Part shown: piece after piece, positions 1,296-41,725 of the stretch
How positions within the stretch are numbered: position 1 is the first letter of the stretch
Layout of the letters: every line of letters begins with the position of its first letter
Assembly: GCA_018711625.1 (NCBI GenBank)
Contig: DVID01000013.1
Coordinates: forward strand, 1 to 44,543
Reading direction: 5' to 3'
Length of the DNA: 44,543 nt
Origin: Candidatus Limicola stercorigallinarum
GTDB lineage: Bacteria; Actinomycetota; Coriobacteriia; Coriobacteriales; Coriobacteriaceae
Position numbers and translations under genes: made by a program
Notes under the pieces: model-generated
What the model was told of the DNA's origin: nothing
Databases searched by the model: none
What the model saw: the letters and a program-made list of their open reading frames with translations, nothing else

Positions 1296-2264
1296 ATGAA
1301 GGCATTTAATCTGGTGAAGGACATCATCGCCGAGCGTGGGAGTATCGAAGAGGTGTATTGGGTTGCGTGCGGCGGCTCGCTCATCGACCTGCTTCCTGCG
1401 CATATGCTGCTTGAGCGAGAGAGCTGCCGACTCGTCTCAAGTGCTTATACGGCACGAGAGTTCTGCATCTCCGCACCGAAGCGTCTGGGTGAGCATAGCC
1501 TTGTTGTTGCATGTAGCCATAGCGGAAACACCCCCGAGGTGCTCGATGCATGTGCACTCGCCCTTGAACGTGGCGCCAAGGTTGTTGCCCTCACAGACAA
1601 CGCAGACTCGAAAATCGCCCACGAACCGCTCGTCTGCTGGGTGTATCCCTGGGGAACGGACGTCCCGGCTGGTGAGGTGCCATCGGGTATCGCGCCGCTT
1701 ATTGCCGCTGAGCTGCTCGAGCAGCAAGAGGAATACGAGCATCTGTCCGATATGTATCAGGGCGTTGGCATCATGGATAATGTTTTGCCTGCGGCGCGGG
1801 GCAAGGTGAACGAAGAGCTGGCGCCCCGATTTGCGGCACTTTGTCAGGAACATCCCTTTCTTTATATCTTGGGATCGGGCCCTAACTTTTGCCAGACGTA
1901 TGGGTTTGCCATCTGCTCGCTCATGGAAATGCAATGGCAGAGCTGCAGCTATATCCATTCGGGCGAATATTTCCATGGGCCCTTTGAGGTCACCGAGCCA
2001 GGTGTGTTCTACTTTTTACAAATGGGTTCAAGCGAGTTTCGTATTATGGATGAGCGTGCGCTCGCGTTTTTGCGCGAACACACTGACACGCTCATGGTGC
2101 TCGACGCGCTCGAGTACGGAATGGACCAGGTCCCCGAGTCGGTTCGCGCCTACCTCGATCCGGTGCTTTTCTATGCTATGAACGTCGAGCTGCGTGCGGC
2201 GCGTGGCAAAGTGTTTGGACATGATCCGGACTATCGCCGTTATATGGGTGTGGTTTCGTACTAG
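1296..2264 (+). CDS. SIS-domain sugar-phosphate deglycase, FrlB-like (fructoselysine-6-phosphate deglycase family)
   Basis: The 322-residue protein has a double SIS fold. CGGS near residue 28 and ACSHSGNTPE around residue 70 form the first phosphosugar site; a second SIS half carries YILGSGPNF and SGEYFHGPFE. This architecture, without a glutaminase domain, is that of the FrlB/GfrF/FraB deglycases that split phosphorylated Amadori products into glucose 6-phosphate and an amino acid. The ATG is preceded by AAGAGGG. The next gene, a PfkB kinase, starts 9 bases after the stop, the expected kinase-deglycase pairing for fructoselysine-type substrates. Fructoselysine use has been reported for gut Collinsella, which fits, but fructose-asparagine or glucoselysine are equally possible from sequence alone. 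No transporter is visible; it would lie to the left. Confidence 0.8.
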   Translation: MKAFNLVKDIIAERGSIEEVYWVACGGSLIDLLPAHMLLERESCRLVSSAYTAREFCISAPKRLGEHSLVVACSHSGNTPEVLDACALALERGAKVVALTDNADSKIAHEPLVCWVYPWGTDVPAGEVPSGIAPLIAAELLEQQEEYEHLSDMYQGVGIMDNVLPAARGKVNEELAPRFAALCQEHPFLYILGSGPNFCQTYGFAICSLMEMQWQSCSYIHSGEYFHGPFEVTEPGVFYFLQMGSSEFRIMDERALAFLREHTDTLMVLDALEYGMDQVPESVRAYLDPVLFYAMNVELRAARGKVFGHDPDYRRYMGVVSY

Positions 2265-2273
2265 GGAGCTCCA

Positions 2274-3143
2274 ATGGGATACGATGTTGCGCTGCTGGGG
2301 TTTGGCGACAATGTTGTCGACCGCTATGAGCACCTAGGGGTTATGTATCCCGGCGGCAACGCGGTCAACGTTGCGGTCTACGCGCAATGGCTCGGAGCGC
2401 GCCGAGCGGCCTATATGGGCATTTTTGGCACCGACGATGCCGCCGAACACGTTATTGAGAGTTTGGAGCAAGAGGGCGTTGAGCTTGTGCGCTGTCGCCA
2501 GGAGATTGGTGAAAATGGCTCCTCGCGTGTGACGGTAAAGAACGGCGAGCGCGTGTTTCTTGGTTCAAATCAGGGTGGTGTTCGTGGTCGTTCGCGCTAC
2601 GTACTTGATCGTTTTGCTCTTGCGTATATCAAAGGCTTTGATGTGCTTCATACGGGAAGTTATTGCTTTACTGAACGTGAACTTCCTTTGGTTCGAGCGG
2701 CTGGGGTACCGGTGAGTTTTGACTTCTCGGAGGACTCTACTGATGCATACTGCGAAGACGTGGCGCCGTTTGTAGATTATGCCTTCTATTCTATGGAGGA
2801 TGAGGCTGACGACGCAGTGGTTGCTGAGCGTTTGCGGTGGCTGCAGGGTCTGGGTCCGTCAATTGCGATAGTGACGCGTGGTGAACGCGGGTCTGTGGCC
2901 TTTGACGGACAGCGGTTCTTTGAGCAGCCCATCAAGCCGGCAAAGACTGTGCGTGACACGATGGGAGCTGGCGATTCGTTTATCGCTGCTTTCTTGTTAG
3001 GGTATCTTGAGCGGTGTGCCTCTGGAGCTGCGCATGAGGATGCCCTTACGAGAGCGCTTGACGGGGCAGCGACCTTTGCTGCCAGTGTTTGCGGCATTGA
3101 GGGTGCTTGGGGTCACCCCCGTCGGTACGTCCAAGAGGGATAG
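2274..3143 (+). CDS. PfkB-family sugar kinase, FrlD-like (fructoselysine 6-kinase family)
   Basis: The 289-residue ribokinase-fold enzyme has the N-terminal substrate motif GGNAVNVAVYAQWLG (about residues 24-38) and the C-terminal PfkB signature DTMGAGDSF with the catalytic aspartate in GAGD. IVTRGERGS precedes the ATP site. The short, lid-poor sequence and the substrate-loop pattern resemble FrlD more than ribokinase or fructokinase. The start ATG follows the deglycase stop after 9 bases, with GGGAG as ribosome site, so the two are translationally linked. The inferred job is to phosphorylate an Amadori compound at C6 for the upstream deglycase. Substrate identity is inferred from the neighbour, not proven. 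Confidence 0.8.
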   Translation: MGYDVALLGFGDNVVDRYEHLGVMYPGGNAVNVAVYAQWLGARRAAYMGIFGTDDAAEHVIESLEQEGVELVRCRQEIGENGSSRVTVKNGERVFLGSNQGGVRGRSRYVLDRFALAYIKGFDVLHTGSYCFTERELPLVRAAGVPVSFDFSEDSTDAYCEDVAPFVDYAFYSMEDEADDAVVAERLRWLQGLGPSIAIVTRGERGSVAFDGQRFFEQPIKPAKTVRDTMGAGDSFIAAFLLGYLERCASGAAHEDALTRALDGAATFAASVCGIEGAWGHPRRYVQEG

Positions 3144-3214
3144 CCCATTATGACAGAAGGGCTCATCTGCTTTCCTTTGGTACTATGTATGCTTCGCGAC
3201 AAGGAGGAAAAACC

Positions 3215-4051
3215 GTGTCAATAAAAGCTATTGCACTCGATATCGACGGCACCCTTACCAACGACAAGAAAGTCATTACCCCACGCACGAAAGAAGCGCT
3301 CCTGGCTGCAGAGCGCGCTGGCATAACGCTCATTCTTGCTTCCGGTCGACCGGCACAAGGCCTCCGTGCGCTTGCGCACGAGCTTGAGCTCGATCGTCAT
3401 CACGGCATGCTTGTTGCCTATAATGGTTCGCAAGTGCGCGATGCCACTTCGGGTGAACTGCTTTTCAATCAGGCGATTTCGGTTGAAGATGCGCGGGCGG
3501 TTCTCGAACACTTGCAGAACTTCGATGTCATCCCCATGCTTGTTGATGCCGATCGTCTCTATATCGAGGATGCGTATCGCTGCACCATTTACCACAAGGG
3601 TGAGCCCAAAAACATCATCAAGTACGAACGCGACGCATGCAGCCTGCGCATCCACGAGGTTCAGTCGCTTCTTGATTGGTGCATTACGCCGCAAAACAAG
3701 ATTCTCACGGCTGGCACGGATACCTACCTCGCTGAGCATCATGAGGAGATGGCAGCTCCCTTTATGGACAGGTTGAGCTGCATGTTTACGGCGGATTTCT
3801 ATTTTGAGTTCACGGCGCGCGGCATCGACAAGGCGCACGCGCTTTCTGTGGCGCTGCCTGAGCGCGGCATCGATCCGTCCGAGCTTGTGGCCTTTGGAGA
3901 TGGACAAAACGACATCCCCATGCTTAAGCTTGCGGGTACGGGCGTTGCTATGGCCAATGCAACCGACGAGGTGAAGCGCGTGGCCGACTGCGTGACCGGG
4001 TCGAACAACGAGGACGGTATTGCTCAGATGCTGGATCGGCTGCTTGGCTAA
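3215..4051 (+). CDS. Cof/YidA-type HAD-IIB sugar phosphatase
   Basis: This 278-residue enzyme has all four HAD motifs: LDIDGTLT at the N terminus (nucleophile Asp8 and acid Asp10), LASGRP (motif II), a C-terminal catalytic lysine in the GIDKAHAL segment, and FGDGQNDIPML (motif IV). The large C2 cap between motifs II and III is typical of Cof-type phosphatases acting on sugar phosphates. The start is taken as GTG 3215, which sits 5 bases after AAGGAGG; the frame extends upstream to 3107 but would then overlap the kinase gene. It is the third phosphate-handling enzyme in this cluster and could limit phosphosugar build-up during Amadori-compound use. Confidence 0.85.
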   Translation: MSIKAIALDIDGTLTNDKKVITPRTKEALLAAERAGITLILASGRPAQGLRALAHELELDRHHGMLVAYNGSQVRDATSGELLFNQAISVEDARAVLEHLQNFDVIPMLVDADRLYIEDAYRCTIYHKGEPKNIIKYERDACSLRIHEVQSLLDWCITPQNKILTAGTDTYLAEHHEEMAAPFMDRLSCMFTADFYFEFTARGIDKAHALSVALPERGIDPSELVAFGDGQNDIPMLKLAGTGVAMANATDEVKRVADCVTGSNNEDGIAQMLDRLLG

Positions 4052-4209
4052 CGTGATCGACGGCTGTTTGTGGGGCGCGAGCGATGAGCCAGTGCATGCC
4101 AGGTGTTTGCGGAACCCTTACATCATGTGTGCGTTCGAAGAGTTCCGACGTGTCCCGAACTGTTTATCATGATTCTCCGGTGCGAAATCGCATGAGGTGA
4201 GGAGTTTAG

Positions 4210-4887
4210 ATGACCCAATCGTTCCCTTTCAAGGCTGTTATCTTTGATATGGATGGCGTTCTTATCGACACCGAGCTCTACTATTGGAACGAGATTCGTC
4301 ATTTCTCGGAGGATTTGGGGCTTGGTATCACCAAAGCCGAGCTCGACGCTCAGGTTGGTCAGTCACACCAGACGTTCCAGCGCAATGTTGCTTTTTGGCT
4401 TGAGCGTGCGGGGAAGGGTGTTGTGGAGCCGGCGGTCGCTGGTCAGATGTTCAATGACTGGTCGAAAAACCACGTGAAGAACTACGACGAGTTGTTGAAC
4501 CCCGGCATTCATGAAACGATCGACGAGCTTAAGCGGCGGGGCGTGCGTGTGGCATTGGCATCGTCCACACCCCTCGAGGGTATCAAGGAAGCGCTTGAGG
4601 GCTGCAAGCTCACCGATGCCTTCGAGCTGGTTGTTTCGGGTGCCGACTTCACCGAGAGCAAGCCTAACCCCGAGATTTACCTGCATACCATAAGTGCCTT
4701 GGGGCTTGCGGCTGAGGATTGTTGCTGCGTGGAAGACTCAGTACCGGGCATCACGGCAGGCAAGGCGGCAGGTCTGACTGTTTTTGCCAAGCGTGAGGAT
4801 CGCTTTGGCTTTTCGCAGGACGCGGCCGACGTCATTATCGATGAGGTGCCGGATATCCTCGAGGCGGCGCCGCACCTGTTTGGGTAG
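4210..4887 (+). CDS. HAD-IA phosphatase / beta-phosphoglucomutase-like protein
   Basis: The complete 225-residue HAD enzyme starts with the nucleophile motif IFDMDGVLIDTE (Asp13 and Asp15), has a helical C1 cap (about residues 20-95), then ALASSTP (motif II), SKPNPEIYL (motif III lysine) and VEDSVPG (motif IV). Members of this subgroup are beta-phosphoglucomutases or small-sugar phosphatases. It is a close paralogue of the truncated HAD at the left edge, so the aldolase-deglycase-kinase genes are bracketed by two copies of one enzyme type. The ATG is preceded by GAGGTGAGGAG. A 158-base gap separates it from the preceding gene, so it may have its own promoter; none is clear. Confidence 0.88.
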   Translation: MTQSFPFKAVIFDMDGVLIDTELYYWNEIRHFSEDLGLGITKAELDAQVGQSHQTFQRNVAFWLERAGKGVVEPAVAGQMFNDWSKNHVKNYDELLNPGIHETIDELKRRGVRVALASSTPLEGIKEALEGCKLTDAFELVVSGADFTESKPNPEIYLHTISALGLAAEDCCCVEDSVPGITAGKAAGLTVFAKREDRFGFSQDAADVIIDEVPDILEAAPHLFG

Positions 4888-31600: not shown

Positions 31601-32722
31601 CTAACTTTGGCTAAATGCTTTCATTGCCGACGCGACCTTTTCGAGAAGTTGGGAGGTTGACGGCTTCAAATAGTGCTCGCCGGTGACACCTTTGAGCTTG
31701 TGGCCCATGAGCAATTCGCATGTGTCGTAGTCTATGCTCCACTCGTACTGCGCGAAGGTGCGCCACGACCGACGCATGTTGGAGGGCGGGATTGTGTACG
31801 GCTTGGATTCGTGGTTCCAGATGCGCATGAAACGCGAGTATGTGATGACAGAGCCATCGTAGTATGGGAAGAGCCATTCGCTTTCACGCGCGGCGGTACC
31901 GCTGGAAAGTTCTAGCAGTCGCGTGCTGTACGGTTCAGGGATTATGATGGTTCGGACGCTCTGGCTGTTTTTCAGGTCTTCATCAGTGCGCAGCTTGTCC
32001 CTGTGCGACATTTGACGAACGATTGGAACGAGCGCGAAGGTCATGCCCATGCATTCGGCGGGCTGCACCTCTAACCTTTTGACTGCAAGCGATTCTCCGA
32101 CGCGGCATGAGCCGAAGAGTTGGAGAATCAGCGCTGGTTCGCAGGTCTTCCCGCGCATGAATTCGAACATTTCGTTTGCTTGTGCAAGGGTGTACATGCC
32201 GTCAGACTTCTTCGTCTTCTTGTCCGGCAGCTCGTAGCCGAGACGGAATTTGTTAGCCGGTGAAACCTCGTACTTGACCGCAAAATCCATGATGGTTCTA
32301 GCAACGATCAATGACAGCTTTGCATCATAGTGGTTGAGCGTCATGAGCCATGATTGAATATCAATAGGCTTGATGGCTGTCACTGGGGCGTTCCTCCACC
32401 TTGGCAGCACGTATGCGTTGAGAACCTTTTTATATTTTTCGGCGGTGTCCGGCTTCACCTTGCCGGTTTCGACGCGCGTGGCAAGCCATGGCAGATACCA
32501 CAGGTCGCACGCGGTTTCGATTGTCGGTGTCGGCCTATCCTTGCCGTGGAGCACTTCAAGCTCTGACATTCGCGCGTCAGCCTGCTTGTACGTGCCGTAA
32601 AACGTCTCGCACATGCGCTTGCGACCGTCCGTGGTGTTCTCCACCCATCTGAGGACGTATTTCTTGCCTTTTATTCTTTCATCGATATGGCCCCACGAGC
32701 GCCTTTGCTTTCGACGTGGCAT
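31601..32722 (-). CDS. Phage tyrosine-type integrase
   Basis: The 373-residue protein has a basic N-terminal arm-binding domain (MPRRKQRRSWGHIDERI), a core-binding SAM-like domain (about residues 70-165) and a C-terminal catalytic domain. Catalytic residues visible are Arg in GSCRVGESL, the second Arg in SNMRRSW, His in LLMGHKLKG and the nucleophile Tyr in GEHYLKP. The usual first His of the H-x-x-R motif is Asn here (NMRR). The start ATG 32722 follows GGAGGCAACTACATT. It is transcribed leftward at the phage edge, as usual for integrases. A 12-bp hairpin at 32768-32807 separates it from the next gene. Confidence 0.92.
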   Translation of the reverse strand: MPRRKQRRSWGHIDERIKGKKYVLRWVENTTDGRKRMCETFYGTYKQADARMSELEVLHGKDRPTPTIETACDLWYLPWLATRVETGKVKPDTAEKYKKVLNAYVLPRWRNAPVTAIKPIDIQSWLMTLNHYDAKLSLIVARTIMDFAVKYEVSPANKFRLGYELPDKKTKKSDGMYTLAQANEMFEFMRGKTCEPALILQLFGSCRVGESLAVKRLEVQPAECMGMTFALVPIVRQMSHRDKLRTDEDLKNSQSVRTIIIPEPYSTRLLELSSGTAARESEWLFPYYDGSVITYSRFMRIWNHESKPYTIPPSNMRRSWRTFAQYEWSIDYDTCELLMGHKLKGVTGEHYLKPSTSQLLEKVASAMKAFSQS

Positions 32723-32767
32723 AATGTAGTTGCCTCCGTTTCCCCCAAAAGACGAGGCTGATAGATT

Positions 32768-32807
32768 GCCCTCTCCACCCCATGCTTGGCGGCTAGGTGG
32801 AGGGGGC
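32768..32807. terminator. Stem-loop between the accessory gene and the integrase
   Basis: GCCCTCTCCACC (32768-32779) pairs with GGTGGAGGGGGC (32796-32807), with one mismatch, across a 16-base loop that itself contains CCA-TGCT-TGG. No T-tract follows on the minus strand. It could reduce read-through from the GIY-YIG gene into the integrase, or act on the integrase leader. Confidence 0.35.
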
Positions 32808-32816
32808 GCCTTGCGC

Positions 32817-34172
32817 TTATATCCTGTCGTATCGGAATACCCCTCTCTTTCTCAGCTCCTCGCTCGTGCGGAACTGCTCGGCGTCGGGTACTTCGGTGAA
32901 CTCTACTGTTTTGTCGTAATTTTTCTTAACGACCTCCTCAATCTCCGCTAGTGAAACCTTGAAGAACTCTCGCCGTTGGTTAACTATGTTCACCTTGCGA
33001 TCCTCGAACTCATGGTGGAGTGCTGCTTCGAGCTTCGGGGCATCATCGCAAAATATCATGGCGTGCACGTCAAAATTAAATGGCACAGACGCATCGCTTA
33101 GCTCGCGAATCCGCTCCATCGGGTCGAGTCGTCTCGTCATTCCGATTTTATAGATCCCTTCTCCAAAGGAACCGATGTTCGAGATGACATAAACGAACCC
33201 CGCCTTTTGATTCGCTTCTCGATAGTCGACGTCGGCAACCGCCTTATCAACATCGGCAAGCTTCGCTTTGAGTTCTGATGCCTTCTCCTCAAGGTCGCGT
33301 CGTTCATCGCCCGTCGCATCTTTCAGACGATTTGAGATGTCCTTATAGGCTGTTAGATACTGCTTCCTCTCTTTCTCTAGCTTTTTGCGAGCTGCTGCGA
33401 TTTCCTGGGCGAGCTTCCTCGCTTCTCGCTCTTGCTCACGAGCTTCGCGAAGTGCTTCTTTCTCTTCTTCTTTCTGAAGGGCGTATTCGTAAGCGAGACG
33501 AACCTCTTCTTCCTTTAGCTGTTGATATTTACGGGGGACGTCGATTCCCATGACAGAGCCAAGCCTGTTGATTGTTTCTGCGGTTTTATAGACCTGCTCG
33601 ATAGACTTGTTAACGTTCGTCGCTTTCACCTTGCGCACAATCTCATCGCATTCGCCGTTGTAGGCTCTGATGAGCAATTTTGTGGTCTGGCTGACCATCT
33701 GTCTGCCCTTTGCTTTGCTTCCGTCTACAGTCCACCTCGTACCATTCGCTATCTTGTTGATCATTTTGATGAATTCTTTTTGACGGGCCCTGCACGATTT
33801 CAGCTCGTCTTTGAATTGGCTTGAGTTGGCGAAGTCGAAACGCGGCTCATATAGGCCGAACTCCTGAACCAAGAACTCGTCATCGAAAGTAGCGAGTTTT
33901 TCTCGATTCCGCTTTATTTCATCTGCCAAATCTTTGCTCTCTCTGGAAAGCCTAGAGTTCTTACTGGCGATTTCATCTTGTTGCCTGCGGGCATCGGAAA
34001 TTTCCCCTTTGATCTTCTCTAGAAGCTGGGAAAGCCTAGATGCTTCTCTCATCTCAGGTGTAAGAAGCTTTTCTGTATTGTCTAAGCGGTTCTGAAGTTC
34101 TTGCAGCTTTGATTCGAGTTCTTCGGCCTGCTTTTTATATTCATTTCCCTTGAAGGTATCTAGAAAGCCCAT
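32817..34172 (-). CDS. DUF4041 / GIY-YIG (T5orf172-type) nuclease with coiled coils
   Basis: The 451-residue protein starts MGFLDTFKGNEYKKQ. Residues about 10-95 form a coiled coil; about 95-230 form a mostly helical domain containing FGLYEPRFDF and NGTRWTVDGSKAKGRQM, a DUF4041-like core; about 230-310 form a second coiled coil. The C terminus (about 326-410) is GIY-YIG-like: FVYVISNIGSFGEGIYKIGMTRR, with the Glu-bearing KLEAALHHEFEDRKVN and REFFKV. It has lower GC and a different codon feel from neighbours. Lying between integrase and repressor, it should be expressed in the lysogen. That position and the nuclease fold suggest a phage-exclusion role, which is inference. Confidence 0.85.
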   Translation of the reverse strand: MGFLDTFKGNEYKKQAEELESKLQELQNRLDNTEKLLTPEMREASRLSQLLEKIKGEISDARRQQDEIASKNSRLSRESKDLADEIKRNREKLATFDDEFLVQEFGLYEPRFDFANSSQFKDELKSCRARQKEFIKMINKIANGTRWTVDGSKAKGRQMVSQTTKLLIRAYNGECDEIVRKVKATNVNKSIEQVYKTAETINRLGSVMGIDVPRKYQQLKEEEVRLAYEYALQKEEEKEALREAREQEREARKLAQEIAAARKKLEKERKQYLTAYKDISNRLKDATGDERRDLEEKASELKAKLADVDKAVADVDYREANQKAGFVYVISNIGSFGEGIYKIGMTRRLDPMERIRELSDASVPFNFDVHAMIFCDDAPKLEAALHHEFEDRKVNIVNQRREFFKVSLAEIEEVVKKNYDKTVEFTEVPDAEQFRTSEELRKRGVFRYDRI

Positions 34173-34226
34173 TGCTCTTTCACCGCTTTCCCATGTGGCG
34201 TCTTCACCAACAACCTGTTTGTTTCG

Positions 34227-34883
34227 TTACTCCATCTCCTCGCTCGGCTGGAACCAGACCACCGTGCCGTGGAACTCCACCGAGTGTTCGTCGGAGCTCG
34301 TGATAACGATGTCCTCGTAGCCCTCGTCCCACGACTCGGGGGAGAGCACCAAGGTGGAGGCCCCTCGGTACATGCGTCTCATGACGTAGTCCGACCCGTC
34401 GATGCTCACGACCGCCACGCTGCCGTTCTGGGGCGCGCGGCTCGGGTCGATGAGGATGTAGCACCCCTCCGGATAGACCTTCGACATGCAGTTGCCCTCC
34501 ACCTGGAGGAAGTACGCGTCCGGATGGCGCTCGCGCACCTCGTAGGGTACGGGGATCTTCTCATCTAGGATATCCGGCTCCTGCGCGGCGCCCGCATGCA
34601 CGCGGCCCAGCAGAGGGGCGTAGGCGGGCTTGGGCTCGCTGTTGGGAATCTTTGCCCCATGCGGCAGGTCGCTACCGAAGTTCATACCGCCGTCTTCTAT
34701 AAGGTTGCTTTTCTTCAGTCCGTAATGATCCGCAATACGCTGGATGGAACCCATACGCGGCTCAGAGAAGCCGCCCTCCCATTGAGAAACGGCACCACGC
34801 GATACGCCTGCAATTTTTGCAAGCTCTTCTTGCGTAATGTCGTAGCGTTTGCGCAGCTCAACAATATTTTCCCTAATTCCCAT
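34227..34883 (-). CDS. Phage repressor: HTH plus S24/LexA-like domain with altered catalytic dyad
   Basis: The 218-residue repressor has an N-terminal helix-turn-helix (ITQEELAKIAGVSRGAVSQWEGG, residues 16-38) and a C-terminal S24-like domain (about 90-215). A possible Ala97-Gly98 cleavage site is kept (GRVHAGAAQ). Where LexA/CI have the catalytic Ser of G-x-S-M, this protein has Cys132 (VEGNCMSKV); where the general base Lys stands in V-T-V-K-R, it has Arg169 (YVMRRMYR). RecA-stimulated self-cleavage is therefore doubtful. It diverges from the Cro-like gene and has AGGAGGTG before its ATG. It should maintain lysogeny. Confidence 0.9.
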   Translation of the reverse strand: MGIRENIVELRKRYDITQEELAKIAGVSRGAVSQWEGGFSEPRMGSIQRIADHYGLKKSNLIEDGGMNFGSDLPHGAKIPNSEPKPAYAPLLGRVHAGAAQEPDILDEKIPVPYEVRERHPDAYFLQVEGNCMSKVYPEGCYILIDPSRAPQNGSVAVVSIDGSDYVMRRMYRGASTLVLSPESWDEGYEDIVITSSDEHSVEFHGTVVWFQPSEEME

Positions 34884-34995
34884 CTGCGCACCTCCTGTTA
34901 GGATTTCTTACATTGTAAGATAATTCCGCTTGACACGCTACGTTAGTATTACTAGCATTATCATTGTCAGATAAAAGGAAGGAGGGACGGTACCG
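34884..34995. promoter_or_regulatory. Divergent lysis-lysogeny promoter and operator region
   Basis: Rightward: -35 TTGACA (34930-34935), 17-base spacer, -10 TAGCAT (34953-34958). Leftward: possible -35 CTGACA (34965-34970) and -10 TACTAA (34943-34948), 16-base spacer, overlapping the rightward promoter. A perfect palindrome CTTACA-T-TGTAAG at 34907-34919 and a degenerate copy TTATCATTGTCAG (9 of 13 bases, around 34958-34970) are the likely repressor/Cro sites, one near each gene. GGAAGGAGGGA serves the Cro-like start. Confidence 0.75.
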
Positions 34996-35199
34996 ATGCC
35001 TTACGAAACGCTATTGGAAGCGCGCAAGCGCGCTGGATACACTCAGCAAGACATGGCAGATAAGCTGGGCTGTTCACGCCCCACTTACGCTGCAATAGAA
35101 GCAGACCCGTCACGTGCGACGGTGCTTCAGGCCAAAACGATATGCTCGTTGCTCTCGAAAAACTACGAGTATATTTTTTTCACCCAAAACGCTAGATAA
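34996..35199 (+). CDS. Cro-like helix-turn-helix protein
   Basis: The 67-residue protein is a single XRE-type HTH: ARKRAGYTQQDMADKLGCSRPTYAAIEADPS gives the two helices and turn, and the remainder (LQAKTICSLL) the packing helices. It is divergent from the repressor and shares its operator region, the position of Cro. It would bind the palindromes at 34907-34970 and favour lytic development. It could also be an activator. The start ATG has a strong GGAAGGAGG upstream. Confidence 0.85.
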   Translation: MPYETLLEARKRAGYTQQDMADKLGCSRPTYAAIEADPSRATVLQAKTICSLLSKNYEYIFFTQNAR

Positions 35200-36728: not shown

Positions 36729-37245
36729 GGCCGCGGGCATCCAGAAGCTCGCGCTGGCCGAGGCAATCATCAAGGCGCTGAAACCGCTCACGGACACGCG
36801 CGGCGGAAAGGGCGGCGTGGACAACCTGCGCACGCGCGCTGACGACGAGCTGCGCCGCATCTACGCGGAGAGCGGGGCCGACCGACGCCAGATAGACATC
36901 AACGGAGTGAAGGTGGGCACGCTCTCGCTCGCCTTCACGAAGCCCGTAGACCGCACCGAGATAGGCGTGCTCGACATGGACGAGCTCATCGGGTGGCTGC
37001 GCGACACCGACGAGGGCCGGGACACCCTGGCAGAGGTGCTAACCGGTTACAAGACCCTGAGGGCGGTGCTCGACACCGCGCAGGCGTTCGGGTTCATGCC
37101 GGACGGATGCAGCGCGGTGGAGGTGCACGACCCGGCGCACATCAAGGGCACGACCCTGCGCGTCGACACGCAGAAGGTCGCCGAGGCGCTCGCCGGGCAG
37201 CTCCCCGTGGCCGTCGCGGGTCTCATCTCCGGGGAGGTGGAGTAA
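36715..37245 (+). CDS. Phage early protein, unknown
   Basis: The 176-residue soluble protein starts MENDKAAGIQKLALAEAIIK at ATG 36715 (GGGGCGAGG upstream). It is helical at the N terminus, with a beta-rich middle (GVKVGTLSLAFTKPV) and a helical C-terminal half (DMDELIGWLRDTDEGRDTLAEV). The final stretch is KVAEALAGQLPVAVAGLI. I cannot place it. It lies directly upstream of the HNH/ATPase/SSB replication-recombination set, and could be a recombination accessory protein; that is only position-based. The stop overlaps the HNH start (TAATG). Confidence 0.65.
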   Translation: MENDKAAGIQKLALAEAIIKALKPLTDTRGGKGGVDNLRTRADDELRRIYAESGADRRQIDINGVKVGTLSLAFTKPVDRTEIGVLDMDELIGWLRDTDEGRDTLAEVLTGYKTLRAVLDTAQAFGFMPDGCSAVEVHDPAHIKGTTLRVDTQKVAEALAGQLPVAVAGLISGEVE

Positions 37246-37835
37246 TGGGTCATAGGAAGGACATGGGCCGGGTCACCTCTGACATGCTGAGGGCTATTCC
37301 TGGCTGCCCGCATTACCTTGCATGCTCAGACGGCAGGATTCTCAGCCTGTATAGCATGTCGTGGCTCGAACCGCATCTCGACAAGTCTACCGGATACCTA
37401 CATGTGAGCATTTCCGAAGAGGGAAAGGTTTCTACGCGTTCAGTCCATCGGTTGATTGCTGAGGCGTTCCTGCCCAAGGAGTCAGACATGCTCGTGGTCA
37501 ACCACAAGGACGAGGACAAGCTGAACAACACGCCGGGAAATCTCGAATGGGCCACTGTCGCCGAAAATATCCGATATGGCACGGCTAGAAAACGAGCGTC
37601 CGAAACGGCTGGGATTGAGGCGCTTAGGGAATCGGCCGCGCGTGCGCGAGAAATCAGGTCTAAGAGGCACGAGAGGCCGGTGGTCAACATCGACACCGGT
37701 CGCGTGTTCCCTTCCATTCGAGATGCCGCCCATGCGATGGGTCTGCGCAAAACCGGCATATGGGGCGCGTGCAACAAGAGGCAGAAGACATGCGGCGGAT
37801 ACCGATGGGCGTATGAGGTGGAGACGGCGTTATGA
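37245..37835 (+). CDS. HNH homing endonuclease-like protein with NUMOD domains
   Basis: The 196-residue protein has an N-terminal NUMOD4-like segment (IPGCPHYLACSDGRILSL), an HNH nuclease core (VHRLIAEAFLPK, VVNHKDEDKLNNTPGNLEWATVAENI, with the HKD/N-x3-N-LEW pattern) and a C-terminal NUMOD1-type DNA-binding helix-turn-helix (FPSIRDAAHAMGLRKTGIWGACN). These are selfish or freestanding homing nucleases common in phages. Its base composition is visibly lower in GC than the flanking genes. Start and stop overlap both neighbours (TAATG before, ATGA after), so it is tightly built into the operon rather than simply inserted. Confidence 0.85.
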   Translation: MGHRKDMGRVTSDMLRAIPGCPHYLACSDGRILSLYSMSWLEPHLDKSTGYLHVSISEEGKVSTRSVHRLIAEAFLPKESDMLVVNHKDEDKLNNTPGNLEWATVAENIRYGTARKRASETAGIEALRESAARAREIRSKRHERPVVNIDTGRVFPSIRDAAHAMGLRKTGIWGACNKRQKTCGGYRWAYEVETAL

Positions 37836-38500
37836 GCATTCCTGTTCTTATCATCGGCGAGCCGGGCAGCGGTAAATCATCCAGCATGCGCGGGTTCGCC
37901 GAGGACGAGCTGGGCGTTATCCAGACCATTGCGAAGCCCCTGCCGTTCAGGAGCAACCTCAAGGTCGCGCGGTCGAGGAGCTTCGAGAAGGTCAGGTCAT
38001 GGCTGCTCGCGTCAAAGAAGTACCGGGCCATGATGGTCGACGACTTCGGCTACCTGATAACGGACACGTACATCAAGTACAGCTATGGAACGGAGAAGCT
38101 GTACGACCAGTACGAGGTGTTCAAGATTATCGGCGGCGAGGTTTACAACCTCATCAACGCGCTCAACGAAGATGGCCAAGATGACCGCATTGTCTACCTG
38201 ACCATGCATATCGAGCGCGACAACTTCGGACATATCGAGCCGGCGACAGTGGGAAAGATGCTCAACGAGAAGGTAAAGCTCGTGGGTATGTTCACCATCG
38301 TAATCATGGCGACCAGCGATGGTGGGGATTACCGGTTCATCACGAACGGACAGCCGCTCAAGTCACCTATGGGGATGTTCCCCCAAGAGATGCCGAACGA
38401 CCTCAAGCAGGTCGACACGCTCATACGCGAGTACTGGGGCATTGCCCCGCTGAAAGACACCGAGAAGAAGGGAAATCCAGATGAAACCAATCGACCTTAG
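37832..38500 (+). CDS. Phage P-loop (AAA_24/Sak4-like) ATPase
   Basis: The 222-residue ATPase has Walker A LIIGEPGSGKSSS (residues about 6-18), a Walker B-like MMVDDFGYL (the Asp-Asp pair) and a later conserved YLTMHIERDNFGH. Proteins of this size and pattern next to an SSB-like gene are phage AAA ATPases, often recombination-linked (Sak4-type single-strand annealing). It ends 20 bases inside the SSB-like gene, so the two are coupled. The exact biochemical role (annealing or helicase loading) cannot be told from sequence. Confidence 0.8.
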   Translation: MSIPVLIIGEPGSGKSSSMRGFAEDELGVIQTIAKPLPFRSNLKVARSRSFEKVRSWLLASKKYRAMMVDDFGYLITDTYIKYSYGTEKLYDQYEVFKIIGGEVYNLINALNEDGQDDRIVYLTMHIERDNFGHIEPATVGKMLNEKVKLVGMFTIVIMATSDGGDYRFITNGQPLKSPMGMFPQEMPNDLKQVDTLIREYWGIAPLKDTEKKGNPDETNRP

Positions 38501-39068
38501 CAACGTGGAGGAGTCCGACGGGGGCTATGCGAGCCTCAAGCCGGGCGCTTACAAGTGCACGATCATGAAGGTGGAGGACGTTCCCGCCAAGGAGTACCTG
38601 CGCGTGTTCCTGGACATCATCGAGGGCGAGTTCAAGGACTACTTCAGCGACCCGTTCTACGAAGACAAGCCGTTCGCGCGCTCCATCATCATGAGCTACA
38701 AGGAGGCGGCGAAGCCGTTCCTCAAGGGTAGGCTCCACGTCATCAGCGACTGCAACCAAGGGTTTGACGCCGAGGCCGCCATCAACGCGGGCAAGGAGCA
38801 GATGCTTGTGGGCAAGGCCGTGGGTGTGGTGTTCCGCGAGGAGGAGTACTACGACAAAAAGACAGGCGAGTTTAAGATGGGCTCGCCGCGCCCCGACCGG
38901 CTCGTCCGGTTCGACGAGATGGGCAAGGACTCCAACGCCAACCCGAAGCCCAAGATGCTCGACGACGCGGGAAAGCGCGGAGCGATGGAGCGTGCTGGCG
39001 TGAGGACGTCGGCGGGAACCGTGGTCACGACGTCCGACATTTACGACGATGACATCCCGTTCGACTAG
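38481..39068 (+). CDS. Phage single-stranded-DNA-binding-like protein (DUF669 type)
   Basis: The 195-residue protein starts MKPIDLSNVEESDGGYASL and ends with an acidic tail TSDIYDDDIPFD, the C-terminal protein-interaction tip typical of SSBs. The central beta-rich part (KCTIMKVEDVP, YLRVFLDIIEGEFKDYF, GVVFREEEYYDKKTGEF) fits an OB-like fold. Its neighbours, an ATPase and an ERCC4-type nuclease, suit a replication-recombination role. It overlaps both: the start lies 20 bases inside the preceding gene, and the next gene starts 20 bases before its stop. Confidence 0.78.
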   Translation: MKPIDLSNVEESDGGYASLKPGAYKCTIMKVEDVPAKEYLRVFLDIIEGEFKDYFSDPFYEDKPFARSIIMSYKEAAKPFLKGRLHVISDCNQGFDAEAAINAGKEQMLVGKAVGVVFREEEYYDKKTGEFKMGSPRPDRLVRFDEMGKDSNANPKPKMLDDAGKRGAMERAGVRTSAGTVVTTSDIYDDDIPFD

Positions 39069-39597
39069 GCCGGAAATACTCTGCGACACACGGCAGCAAA
39101 AGGGAAAACACGGGCACGTCGATGGCTGGTTCACCGCTCACGGCGTGCCCTTCTCCTACCGAAAGCTCGACTTCGGCGATTATATGCGATCCGACGGGTT
39201 CGGAAACATCGTTGTCGACACCAAGAAGGACGTTCAGGAGCTGGCCGGCAACTGCGGGCGAGAGCACGCGAGATTCGTGCGCGAGCTCGACCGCGCGAGG
39301 GACGCCGGATTCCGGCTCTTCATCCTCGTGGAGGAGCTCGAGAAGTACAACGACCGGGACGAGATGTACCGCTGGGTGTCGCGCGTGTGCCGCTCATGCA
39401 AGGAGTTCCGCGCCAAGAGGTGCAGGCCGAGCGTCGACAGGTGCCGGGTGCGGAGGTTCAAGCCGATGAACGGTGGGACGCTCGCCAAGATCATCACCAA
39501 GCTGGAGAAGGAGCACGGGGCGCTGTTCATGTTCTGCAGGCGGGGCGACACCGCCCGCGTGATATGCGACCTGCTGGGGGTTGAGTATGACGAATGA
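39049..39597 (+). CDS. ERCC4-type nuclease
   Basis: The 182-residue protein matches the ERCC4/XPF nuclease core: DTRQQKGKHG at the N terminus, KLDFGDYM, IVVDTKKDVQEL (the usual ERKS position reads DTKK) and CGREHARFVRELDRARDAGFRLFILVEE, followed by HIS-poor, Cys/Arg-rich SRVCRSCKEFRAKRCRPS. Phage members process replication or recombination intermediates. The start ATG 39049 lies inside the SSB-like gene; the downstream prim-pol gene overlaps its end. There is no helicase domain, as usual for phage-sized versions. Confidence 0.8.
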   Translation: MTSRSTRPEILCDTRQQKGKHGHVDGWFTAHGVPFSYRKLDFGDYMRSDGFGNIVVDTKKDVQELAGNCGREHARFVRELDRARDAGFRLFILVEELEKYNDRDEMYRWVSRVCRSCKEFRAKRCRPSVDRCRVRRFKPMNGGTLAKIITKLEKEHGALFMFCRRGDTARVICDLLGVEYDE

Positions 39598-41725
39598 CAT
39601 CTCGCCGTGCGGGGCGGCGGCGCTCGACTACATATCGAGGGGGCTGGCTGTAATACCGGTGAAGCCGGGCACGAAGGTTCCAGCCACCCTGCACGGCATC
39701 AACGACTGGAGCGACAACCCCGACCAGGCGAGGTTCTGGTGGGGCTCGGGCGAGTTCAAGGGCAAGCCGGGTTCCAACCCGCGGTACAACGTTGGCGTGG
39801 TGTGCGGACAGGTCTCAGGCGGCCTCGTGTGCATCGACGTCGACTCGCACGGCGACGTTGACGGGCGCGAGACGCTCAGGACGTGGCAGGTGGAGAACGG
39901 CAAGCTGCCAGAGACCGTGACCCAAGTAACGGGAGGCGGCGGGCTCCAGCTCTTCTACCGGGTCGATAGGAAAATCAAGCCGAGCACCAACGGTGATATC
40001 GGAATTGATATCAGGGGCGACGGCTCGTTCGCGGTCATGCCGCCGAGCCTCCACCCCTCGGGGGAGCGCTACGAGTGGAGCGTGAGCTTCGACGATTGCG
40101 ACATGGCCGACGCGGACAGCAAGGTCTACGAATTCATCGATTACGTCAGGCCCGAGGGCGCGAAGGCCGCCGAGGACGGCTCAAAGCCGCTCTTCGAGCT
40201 GCCTGACGTGATTGAGAGCGACCGCAACAACACGCTCTTCAAGTACGCCTGCAGCCTGCGCGAGAGGGGGCTGGGCGGGGCGGACATAGCGACGCTCGTG
40301 GAGGCGAAGAACTCCACCAACTGCAAGCCGCCCCTGCCCGCCGCCGAGGTGCGCAAGATCTGCCAGAGCGTGCTGCGCTACAACCCGGGGAACGAGGCGA
40401 AGACCACCAAGGCCGAGACCATCGGCGAGGTGGAGAAGGCCGAGAAGCTGAAGAACGTCACATCCCTTGAGGTGTGCCAGCTCATGCTCGGCAACGAAGA
40501 CATATCGAAGGGCATCAAGTTCGACGTAATCGACCAGAGGCCATGGAAGGTCGCCCCGCTACCGTGGGACAGGACGGACGAGGTGCGCCCTGTCGCGGAC
40601 GGCGACGTGGCCAGCATGTACGGGGTCCTCGAATACGGCAGCGGCATACGCTCGATGGCGCAGTTCAAGACGGCGTTCGACCAGTTCCTCATGGTTCCGT
40701 CGCAACGCATGAACCCGATTGACGACGTGTTCGGAGCCCTCCCCTCCGTTGAGATGGAGTGGGGGGACCCGTCAAGGCCGCCCGAGACCTGCAAGGTCGA
40801 CGGGGTGGAAGAGATGACGTTCTCCGGCAAGCTGTTCAGGCTGCTGCTCGACGCGGAGGACAACGAGTACACGGAGCAGGTGGAGCTGCTGATGCTCAGG
40901 CAGCTCGTGGCCAGGGCGTTCCACCCGGGATGCAAGGCGGACTCCATGATCGTGCTCGCGGGCGGGCAGGGAATCGGAAAGTCGACGTTCGCCCGAGAGC
41001 TCGCGCTAGACGAGAGGTTCTTCCTCGACGGCATGAGCAAGTTCGACGAGGAGCATAAGCGCAGGCTTATCGGGAAGCTCGTGGTGGAGGTCTCAGAGCT
41101 TGAGGCGTTCAACCACAGCGACATGTCGAGCATCAAGCAGGCCATCACGGCCCAGCGCGACAACATCCGCATGCCGTACCGCGAGTACGCGGCGGACTAC
41201 CCTCGCACGTGTGTCTTCATCGGCACCACCAACGAGGGCGCGTTCCTGACGGACACTACAGGCAACAGGCGGTTCCTGCCGGTCGTGTGTAAGCAGCCGG
41301 CATGCGAGCCGAACCCTATGCTGTTCGACGGGACAGCGAGGGACATGATACGGCAGGCCGTGGCGGAGACCGCGGCGCTCTACGAGCAGCTCGGGGATGA
41401 GGCGTTCATGAAGACGCTGGTGCTGCCGAAGCGCATCATGGCGCAGGTGGTGGAGACGCAGGACGAGTACACGCAGGAGGACGATGTTCTCACGGCCGTC
41501 TCGTCCTACCTTGACTCGCTGCCCGACAACATATCCCGAGTGAACGTGAAGATGGTGATGATCGAAGGCATGGACTATTCGAAGGAGGCGTTCAGCCGGG
41601 AGAAGCGATATGTCAAGAACGACGTGGCGCGCGCCATCTCGAAGTGCACGGGATGGGAGAAGATGAAGGGCAAGCAGCTCGTGAACGGCTTCGGCACGTC
41701 GCAGACATGGCGGCGCGTCGGATAA
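39587..41725 (+). CDS. Prim-pol / VirE-like replicative helicase-primase
   Basis: The roughly 712-residue protein has an N-terminal bifunctional primase-polymerase domain (residues about 10-175: GLAVIPVKPGTKVPA, VVCGQVSGGLVCIDVDSHGD with the metal-binding Asp pair, TGGGGLQLFYRV). A linker follows, then a P-loop VirE-like helicase domain: Walker A VLAGGQGIGKSTFA, Walker B LVVEVSELEAF and the sensor TNEGAFLTDTTGNRRFLPV. Such fusions start phage or plasmid replication. ATG 39587 was chosen over the TTG at 39581; no strong Shine-Dalgarno stands before either. It is the last replication gene before the iteron region, and probably acts on it. Confidence 0.88.
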   Translation: MTNDISPCGAAALDYISRGLAVIPVKPGTKVPATLHGINDWSDNPDQARFWWGSGEFKGKPGSNPRYNVGVVCGQVSGGLVCIDVDSHGDVDGRETLRTWQVENGKLPETVTQVTGGGGLQLFYRVDRKIKPSTNGDIGIDIRGDGSFAVMPPSLHPSGERYEWSVSFDDCDMADADSKVYEFIDYVRPEGAKAAEDGSKPLFELPDVIESDRNNTLFKYACSLRERGLGGADIATLVEAKNSTNCKPPLPAAEVRKICQSVLRYNPGNEAKTTKAETIGEVEKAEKLKNVTSLEVCQLMLGNEDISKGIKFDVIDQRPWKVAPLPWDRTDEVRPVADGDVASMYGVLEYGSGIRSMAQFKTAFDQFLMVPSQRMNPIDDVFGALPSVEMEWGDPSRPPETCKVDGVEEMTFSGKLFRLLLDAEDNEYTEQVELLMLRQLVARAFHPGCKADSMIVLAGGQGIGKSTFARELALDERFFLDGMSKFDEEHKRRLIGKLVVEVSELEAFNHSDMSSIKQAITAQRDNIRMPYREYAADYPRTCVFIGTTNEGAFLTDTTGNRRFLPVVCKQPACEPNPMLFDGTARDMIRQAVAETAALYEQLGDEAFMKTLVLPKRIMAQVVETQDEYTQEDDVLTAVSSYLDSLPDNISRVNVKMVMIEGMDYSKEAFSREKRYVKNDVARAISKCTGWEKMKGKQLVNGFGTSQTWRRVG

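Follow-up and report, generated by a model that had tools for sequence, protein, structure and literature searches.

A prophage-borne SNIPE (PD-Lambda-1)-family gene next to the repressor in a Coriobacteriaceae genome, with a short N-terminal tag where Escherichia coli SNIPE has a transmembrane helix

What does the nuclease gene between the integrase and the repressor of a Coriobacteriaceae prophage do, and how would a host tolerate its product? We examined this locus in a 44,543-nucleotide stretch from Candidatus Limicola stercorigallinarum (contig DVID01000013.1; the whole stretch is referred to here as the window). An earlier note on this DNA had read the gene product as a 451-residue nuclease-fold protein with two coiled coils, and this description is borne out by Pfam and by an AlphaFold2 model (mean pLDDT, 80.6). 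The open reading frame starts with ATG, 7 nt downstream of a Shine-Dalgarno sequence (GGTGA). Pfam matches were obtained for DUF4041 (PF13250; residues 165 to 220; 4.8e-18) and for two GIY-YIG-type domains, T5orf172 (PF10544; residues 325 to 417; 1.4e-20) and MUG113 (PF13455; 4e-21). In the model, a pair of long helices (residues 4 to 36 and 39 to 103) is followed by the helical DUF4041 region (117 to 208), described as a bundle, by a second long helical stretch (214 to 285 and 289 to 320), and by the GIY-YIG domain (327 to 418; strands at 327 to 332 and 340 to 345). Because both long helical stretches appear in the model, we take the two coiled coils to be real. The features of the locus are listed in Table 1.

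Table 1. Features of the SNIPE-family gene and its surroundings (window coordinates)
Feature	Position	Strand	Basis or remark
SNIPE/PD-Lambda-1-family gene	32817..34172	-	451 aa; DUF4041 + GIY-YIG nuclease
N-terminal tag MGFLDTFKGNEYK, residues 1-13	34134..34172	-	Replaces E. coli SNIPE TM helix; docking role inferred
N-terminal coiled coil, residues 14-103	33864..34133	-	AlphaFold2 helices 4-36, 39-103
DUF4041 Pfam match, residues 165-220	33513..33680	-	Pfam; function from PMC13190303
Long helical linker, residues 214-320	33213..33533	-	AlphaFold2 helices 214-285, 289-320
Codon of R225 (equivalent to SNIPE W257)	33498..33500	-	R in 23/86 homologues at that column
GIY-YIG nuclease domain (T5orf172/MUG113), residues 325-417	32922..33200	-	Pfam, AlphaFold2
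Codon of predicted catalytic E382 (= SNIPE E414)	33027..33029	-	Invariant in 86/86 homologues
Tyrosine integrase	31601..32722	-	Directly downstream of SNIPE gene
CI-like repressor (HTH + Peptidase_S24)	34227..34883	-	Directly upstream of SNIPE gene, same strand
Probable operator region, cI-cro	34908..34974	.	Palindrome TTACATTGTAA + 13-nt direct repeat (34911-34923, 34962-34974); function inferred
Cro-like HTH	34996..35199	+	Divergent from repressor

The protein matched the PADLOC PD-Lambda-1 profile over nearly its full length (E = 1.3e-147; residues 14 to 443 onto profile positions 47 to 475 of 491) and also PHROG 1847, annotated as "unknown function" (E = 1.3e-144); with an E value of about 1e-147, chance is not an issue for this homology. 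It shares 38% identity over residues 17 to 441 with the E. coli PD-lambda-1 protein annotated in phage PhiR26_1, the numbering of which fits the published SNIPE residues E414, N250, L253, and W257. The GIY-YIG motifs (GFVYVISN...YKIGMTRR) are present, R354 and E382 are invariant, and E382 aligns with the published catalytic E414. Seven basic residues of DUF4041 (K121, R128, K132, K136, K165, R169, and K183) fall in columns that are more than 75% K/R among homologues. Foldseek comparison with the PDB returned chance coiled-coil matches alone (best E, 0.03), and no relative turned up when the PDB was searched by sequence. Judged by sequence, the protein is a full-length member of the SNIPE (PD-Lambda-1) family, a defence family explained only recently. 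In our search, 4 of 65 Coriobacteriaceae genomes carried the family; homologues with 69 to 71% identity (L043 and L044) lie in Coriobacteriaceae chromosomes, with prophage genes not nearby.

The earlier note had called the mode of action of such proteins not well described, a statement that is now out of date. PD-Lambda-1 was found by functional selection in E. coli (Vassallo 2022, PMC9519451), and it has since been renamed SNIPE and characterized as an inner-membrane nuclease that cleaves phage DNA as it is being injected and defends against lambda and siphophages (Saxton 2026, PMC13190303). Both ManYZ and the tape measure protein are contacted by SNIPE; the DUF4041 domain, which binds the latter as well as DNA, guides cutting, and either E414A or deletion of DUF4041 abolishes defence (PMC13190303). 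In a Gram-positive host, a Streptococcus thermophilus homologue (the EU01 variant) gave more than 3-log protection against dairy siphophages (PMC12322248).

The arrangement of our protein (i.e., DUF4041, long helix, and GIY-YIG, in that order, with the catalytic glutamate) and its prophage location are those of E. coli SNIPE. By analogy with the family, when a siphophage injects its genome, DUF4041 would bind both the incoming DNA and the tape measure protein of that phage, and the C-terminal GIY-YIG domain, with E382 as its catalytic residue, would cut that DNA on entry, to the benefit of host and resident prophage alike. For this protein, both the cutting of DNA at injection and the recognition of the tape measure are expected from the family, and on this reading such injection-stage nuclease defence would extend to a Coriobacteriaceae prophage. 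One residue differs at a position of interest: where E. coli SNIPE has W257, R225 is native here, and 23 of 86 homologues have arginine at the aligned position. In E. coli SNIPE, the substitution W257R made the protein bind the Bas14 tape measure protein more strongly (PMC13190303). Up to the end of the contig, the prophage portion contained no PF10145 match for a tape measure gene of its own. A transmembrane (TM)-bearing SNIPE homologue, gp19 of phage ES18 (L038), is a moron close upstream of the ES18 tape measure gene.

We confirmed that the gene lies between the integrase and the repressor, in one leftward cluster (31601-34883). The gaps are 54 nt from the repressor to the SNIPE gene and 94 nt from the SNIPE gene to the integrase, and all three genes are on the minus strand. 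No terminator-like site was found between the repressor and the SNIPE gene, so co-transcription with cI in the lysogen is likely; the short gap and the location of the repressor gene upstream, in the same orientation, are also what a gene expressed in the lysogen would be expected to show. The position differs from that in PhiR26_1, in which the gene lies between ren and rha, and from that of the S. thermophilus member of the family, the locus of which is chromosomal (PMC12322248).

The interval between repressor and integrase is used in a similar way elsewhere. In phages EJ-1, phiS10, Poushou, and PLE3 and in viral contig L001, a SNIPE gene lies between repressor/metalloprotease genes and the integrase, in some of them together with extra small genes. 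Directly upstream of homologues at 90 loci, we found HTH regulators (24), M78 peptidases (19), and S24 repressors (13), with overlap between these classes; among 82 downstream neighbours, integrases and recombinases were the commonest (17 tyrosine integrases and 7 serine recombinases). In Coriobacteriales prophages with related integrases, other cargo occupies the place upstream of int, namely NYN nucleases (L122 and L132), AbiD (L135 and L138), DUF3800/PDC-M04A (L124), lipoproteins (L127 and L143), and unknowns. The lipoprotein cargo that we tested had no Pfam or PADLOC defence signature, and a search of viral contigs with the integrase as query returned no relatives. This comparison shows the repressor-integrase slot of Coriobacteriales prophages to be a swappable defence site. 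Since SNIPE relatives and other cargo occupy the slot elsewhere, and the protein matches a proven defence family over its full length, the earlier suggestion of a lysogeny-expressed gene for superinfection defence is supported.

An analogue at the same map position is Ltp of phage TP-J34, a superinfection-exclusion lipoprotein that prevents DNA injection by contacting the tape measure protein (PMC3952083). The order int - ltp - metalloproteinase - CI - cro resembles that of our locus, and Ltp is expressed in the lysogen. However, Ltp is an unrelated outer-face lipoprotein without a nuclease and is therefore an analogue, not a homologue.

It could be argued that the protein serves the resident phage in some other way (e.g., in processing of its own DNA or as a homing-type endonuclease) and has no role in defence. 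Homing endonucleases commonly contain GIY-YIG domains, and an HNH endonuclease gene is present elsewhere in the prophage. We nonetheless consider this reading very improbable in view of the end-to-end similarity to a family with experimentally demonstrated defence activity, the lysogeny-module position common to unrelated phages, the exchange of other defence genes into the slot, and the existence of the solitary chromosomal copies L043 and L044.

One locus may record such an exchange. In genome G049 (L200, G049:C12 about 2720-4770; L188), the tail of an S24 repressor gene is followed by what look like the first 13 or so SNIPE codons, a lipoprotein gene, Abi_2, and a serine recombinase gene. 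Beginning immediately beyond the lipoprotein gene, a 760-base stretch shares 97.9% identity with the DNA downstream of the SNIPE gene in L042, where the SNIPE gene is intact. The 13-codon match is weak on its own (E, 0.03), and together these features suggest that the locus is probably a relic of one defence gene replaced by another. In L042 itself (1604-4540; uncultured Collinsella), an HTH regulator, a SNIPE gene encoding a protein 78% identical to ours, and Abi_2 form a small defence cluster.

The earlier note had also remarked on a base composition lower in G+C than that of the neighbours, and our values agree: 48.1% for the gene compared with 53.8% for the integrase, 60.0% for the repressor, and 60.4% for the window, with third-position G+C of 55% compared with 68 to 89% in neighbouring genes. 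Such values would suit a recently acquired, AT-rich passenger that has decayed and lost its function. Of two S. thermophilus homologues that are 98.5% identical, one was protective and the other gave no protection (PMC12322248), so family membership is no guarantee of activity. In our gene, however, the 451-codon frame, the start codon, and the Shine-Dalgarno sequence are intact and all of the invariant nuclease residues are kept, and we consider decay quite unlikely.

The protein departs from E. coli SNIPE most clearly at its N terminus. It has no TM helix (maximum 19-residue hydropathy, 0.81, compared with 3.37 in E. coli SNIPE) and begins instead with MGFLDTFKG. A misannotated start codon was rejected as the cause; no earlier start codon occurs in the 18 in-frame codons upstream, and thus none could supply a TM helix. 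What is new here is the absence of the very anchor that E. coli SNIPE cannot lose without becoming toxic; deprived of its TM domain, E. coli SNIPE cuts host DNA (PMC13190303). The TM domain was reported to be absent in 34% of SNIPE homologues, for which Saxton et al. pointed to DivIVA-like, PH, and other domains; amphipathic N termini are not mentioned in the main text of that study (PMC13190303). Loss of the DNA-binding charge of DUF4041 in TM-less members was considered and rejected (mean net charge, 6.2 versus 5.9 between classes).

Among 91 nonredundant homologues, with TM helices called by a simple hydropathy cutoff, 25 had a TM helix, 5 had a zinc ribbon without a TM helix, 52 had neither of these and started with M[GSA][FLIVM], and 9 had none of the three; the M[GSA][FLIVM] start was thus present in 52 of the 61 homologues that have neither a TM helix nor a zinc ribbon. 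The strict form M[GSA][FLIVM]xDx[FLIM] occurred in 47 of 108 homologues compared with 1 of 673 neighbouring (background) open reading frames, a somewhat favourable count in that near-duplicates were included and start codons were chosen with preference for the strict form. Conservation in the tag class was higher in residues 1 to 13 (0.51) than in the following coiled coil (0.28), partly due to selection of the class by residues 2 and 3. D5 (81%) and K13 (77%), neither of which was used in class selection, were also conserved.

In a tree of the core region, TM and tag types interleave, and well-supported branches force at least nine changes of the tag label and at least six of the TM label. 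Sister proteins with 72 to 78% identity in the core carry either a TM hairpin of about 40 residues or a zinc ribbon on one side and the short tag on the other (L051/L008, L047/L007, and L107/L077). N-terminal modules have therefore been exchanged among close relatives that differ little in the core and mainly at the N terminus, and the exchange of tag and TM hairpin in proteins 72 to 74% identical suggests that the two are equal in role.

The same type of start is found in host proteins. In 13 Coriobacteriaceae genomes, M-G-[FL]-[FL]-D-x-[FL] had 32 matches at protein starts (reversed control, 0), of which about ten were FtsY and twelve were PTS EIIA-Glc (three of these assignments were made by Pfam scan and the others were recognized from sequence); the remainder were mostly SepF, PTS EIIC, acylphosphatase, portal protein, and small unknowns. 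SepF has a membrane-docking N terminus. As orthologues of related genomes are not independent, FtsY, EIIA-Glc, and SepF represent three unrelated families rather than 23 events. EIIA-Glc and FtsY have N-terminal membrane anchors (PMC6123446; PMC2780400), and they share with our protein the opening motif, but the likeness is confined to the first ~8 residues and their N termini are more amphipathic. FtsY itself was apparently absent from the genome of the window, most likely owing to a gap in the ~95%-complete assembly; the relatives tested have FtsY. Small proteins starting with MGFFDWLR that have no Pfam match (L174 and L185) also occur in Coriobacteriaceae genomes and are possibly another membrane-docked family.

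The first ~10 residues may therefore attach this coiled-coil protein to the cytoplasmic side of the membrane and so keep its nuclease away from the chromosome of the host; for MGFLDTFKG in our protein, we put this at about one chance in two. We give equal weight for and against to the broader proposal that about one-half of the SNIPE homologues sampled are membrane-docked without a TM helix, by a portable tag of 8 to 10 residues (M-[GSA]-F/L-x-D-x-F/L-K) that spares the host chromosome, with TM hairpins, zinc ribbons, and the tag acting as interchangeable address labels. If so, the tag would be a very small targeting element and would explain how many TM-less SNIPE homologues avoid killing their hosts.

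The tag itself scores poorly as an amphipathic helix: a HELIQUEST-type score did not mark it as lipid-binding (mean D, 0.17 to 0.54, compared with 0.53 to 0.55 for background N termini), and its hydrophobic moment was lower than those of the FtsY and EIIA-Glc controls. The first residues of the AlphaFold2 model are of low confidence. These observations, together with the low hydropathy throughout the protein, would fit a cytoplasmic nuclease that encounters phage DNA once this has entered the cell and whose activity is restrained by self-oligomerization or by dependence on tape-measure recognition alone, the tag being a cap or oligomerization element of the coiled coil; membrane-bound SNIPE is auto-inhibited, according to Saxton et al. 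(PMC13190303). We judge this arrangement unlikely, if worth keeping in mind, in the face of the toxicity of TM-less E. coli SNIPE, the exchange of tag for TM hairpins, and the start shared with FtsY, EIIA-Glc, and SepF. The account that we prefer, and consider highly probable, is that of a prophage-borne SNIPE-family anti-phage gene, most likely co-transcribed with cI and acting by cutting DNA at the injection stage, with docking by the tag as the proposed substitute for a TM helix.

The contig ends at 44543 inside the prophage, so the right half, the attachment sites, and the structural genes, including that for the tape measure protein, are missing and intactness of the prophage cannot be shown. 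Within the part present, the HNH endonuclease gene (37242-37835, plus strand; PHROG 59, 1e-37) is inserted among early prophage genes and adjoins genes for a Sak4-like annealing protein (37832-38500) and an ERCC4-type nuclease (39049-39597). The prophage replication protein is a Prim-Pol primase fused to a VapE-like helicase (39581-41725, plus strand).
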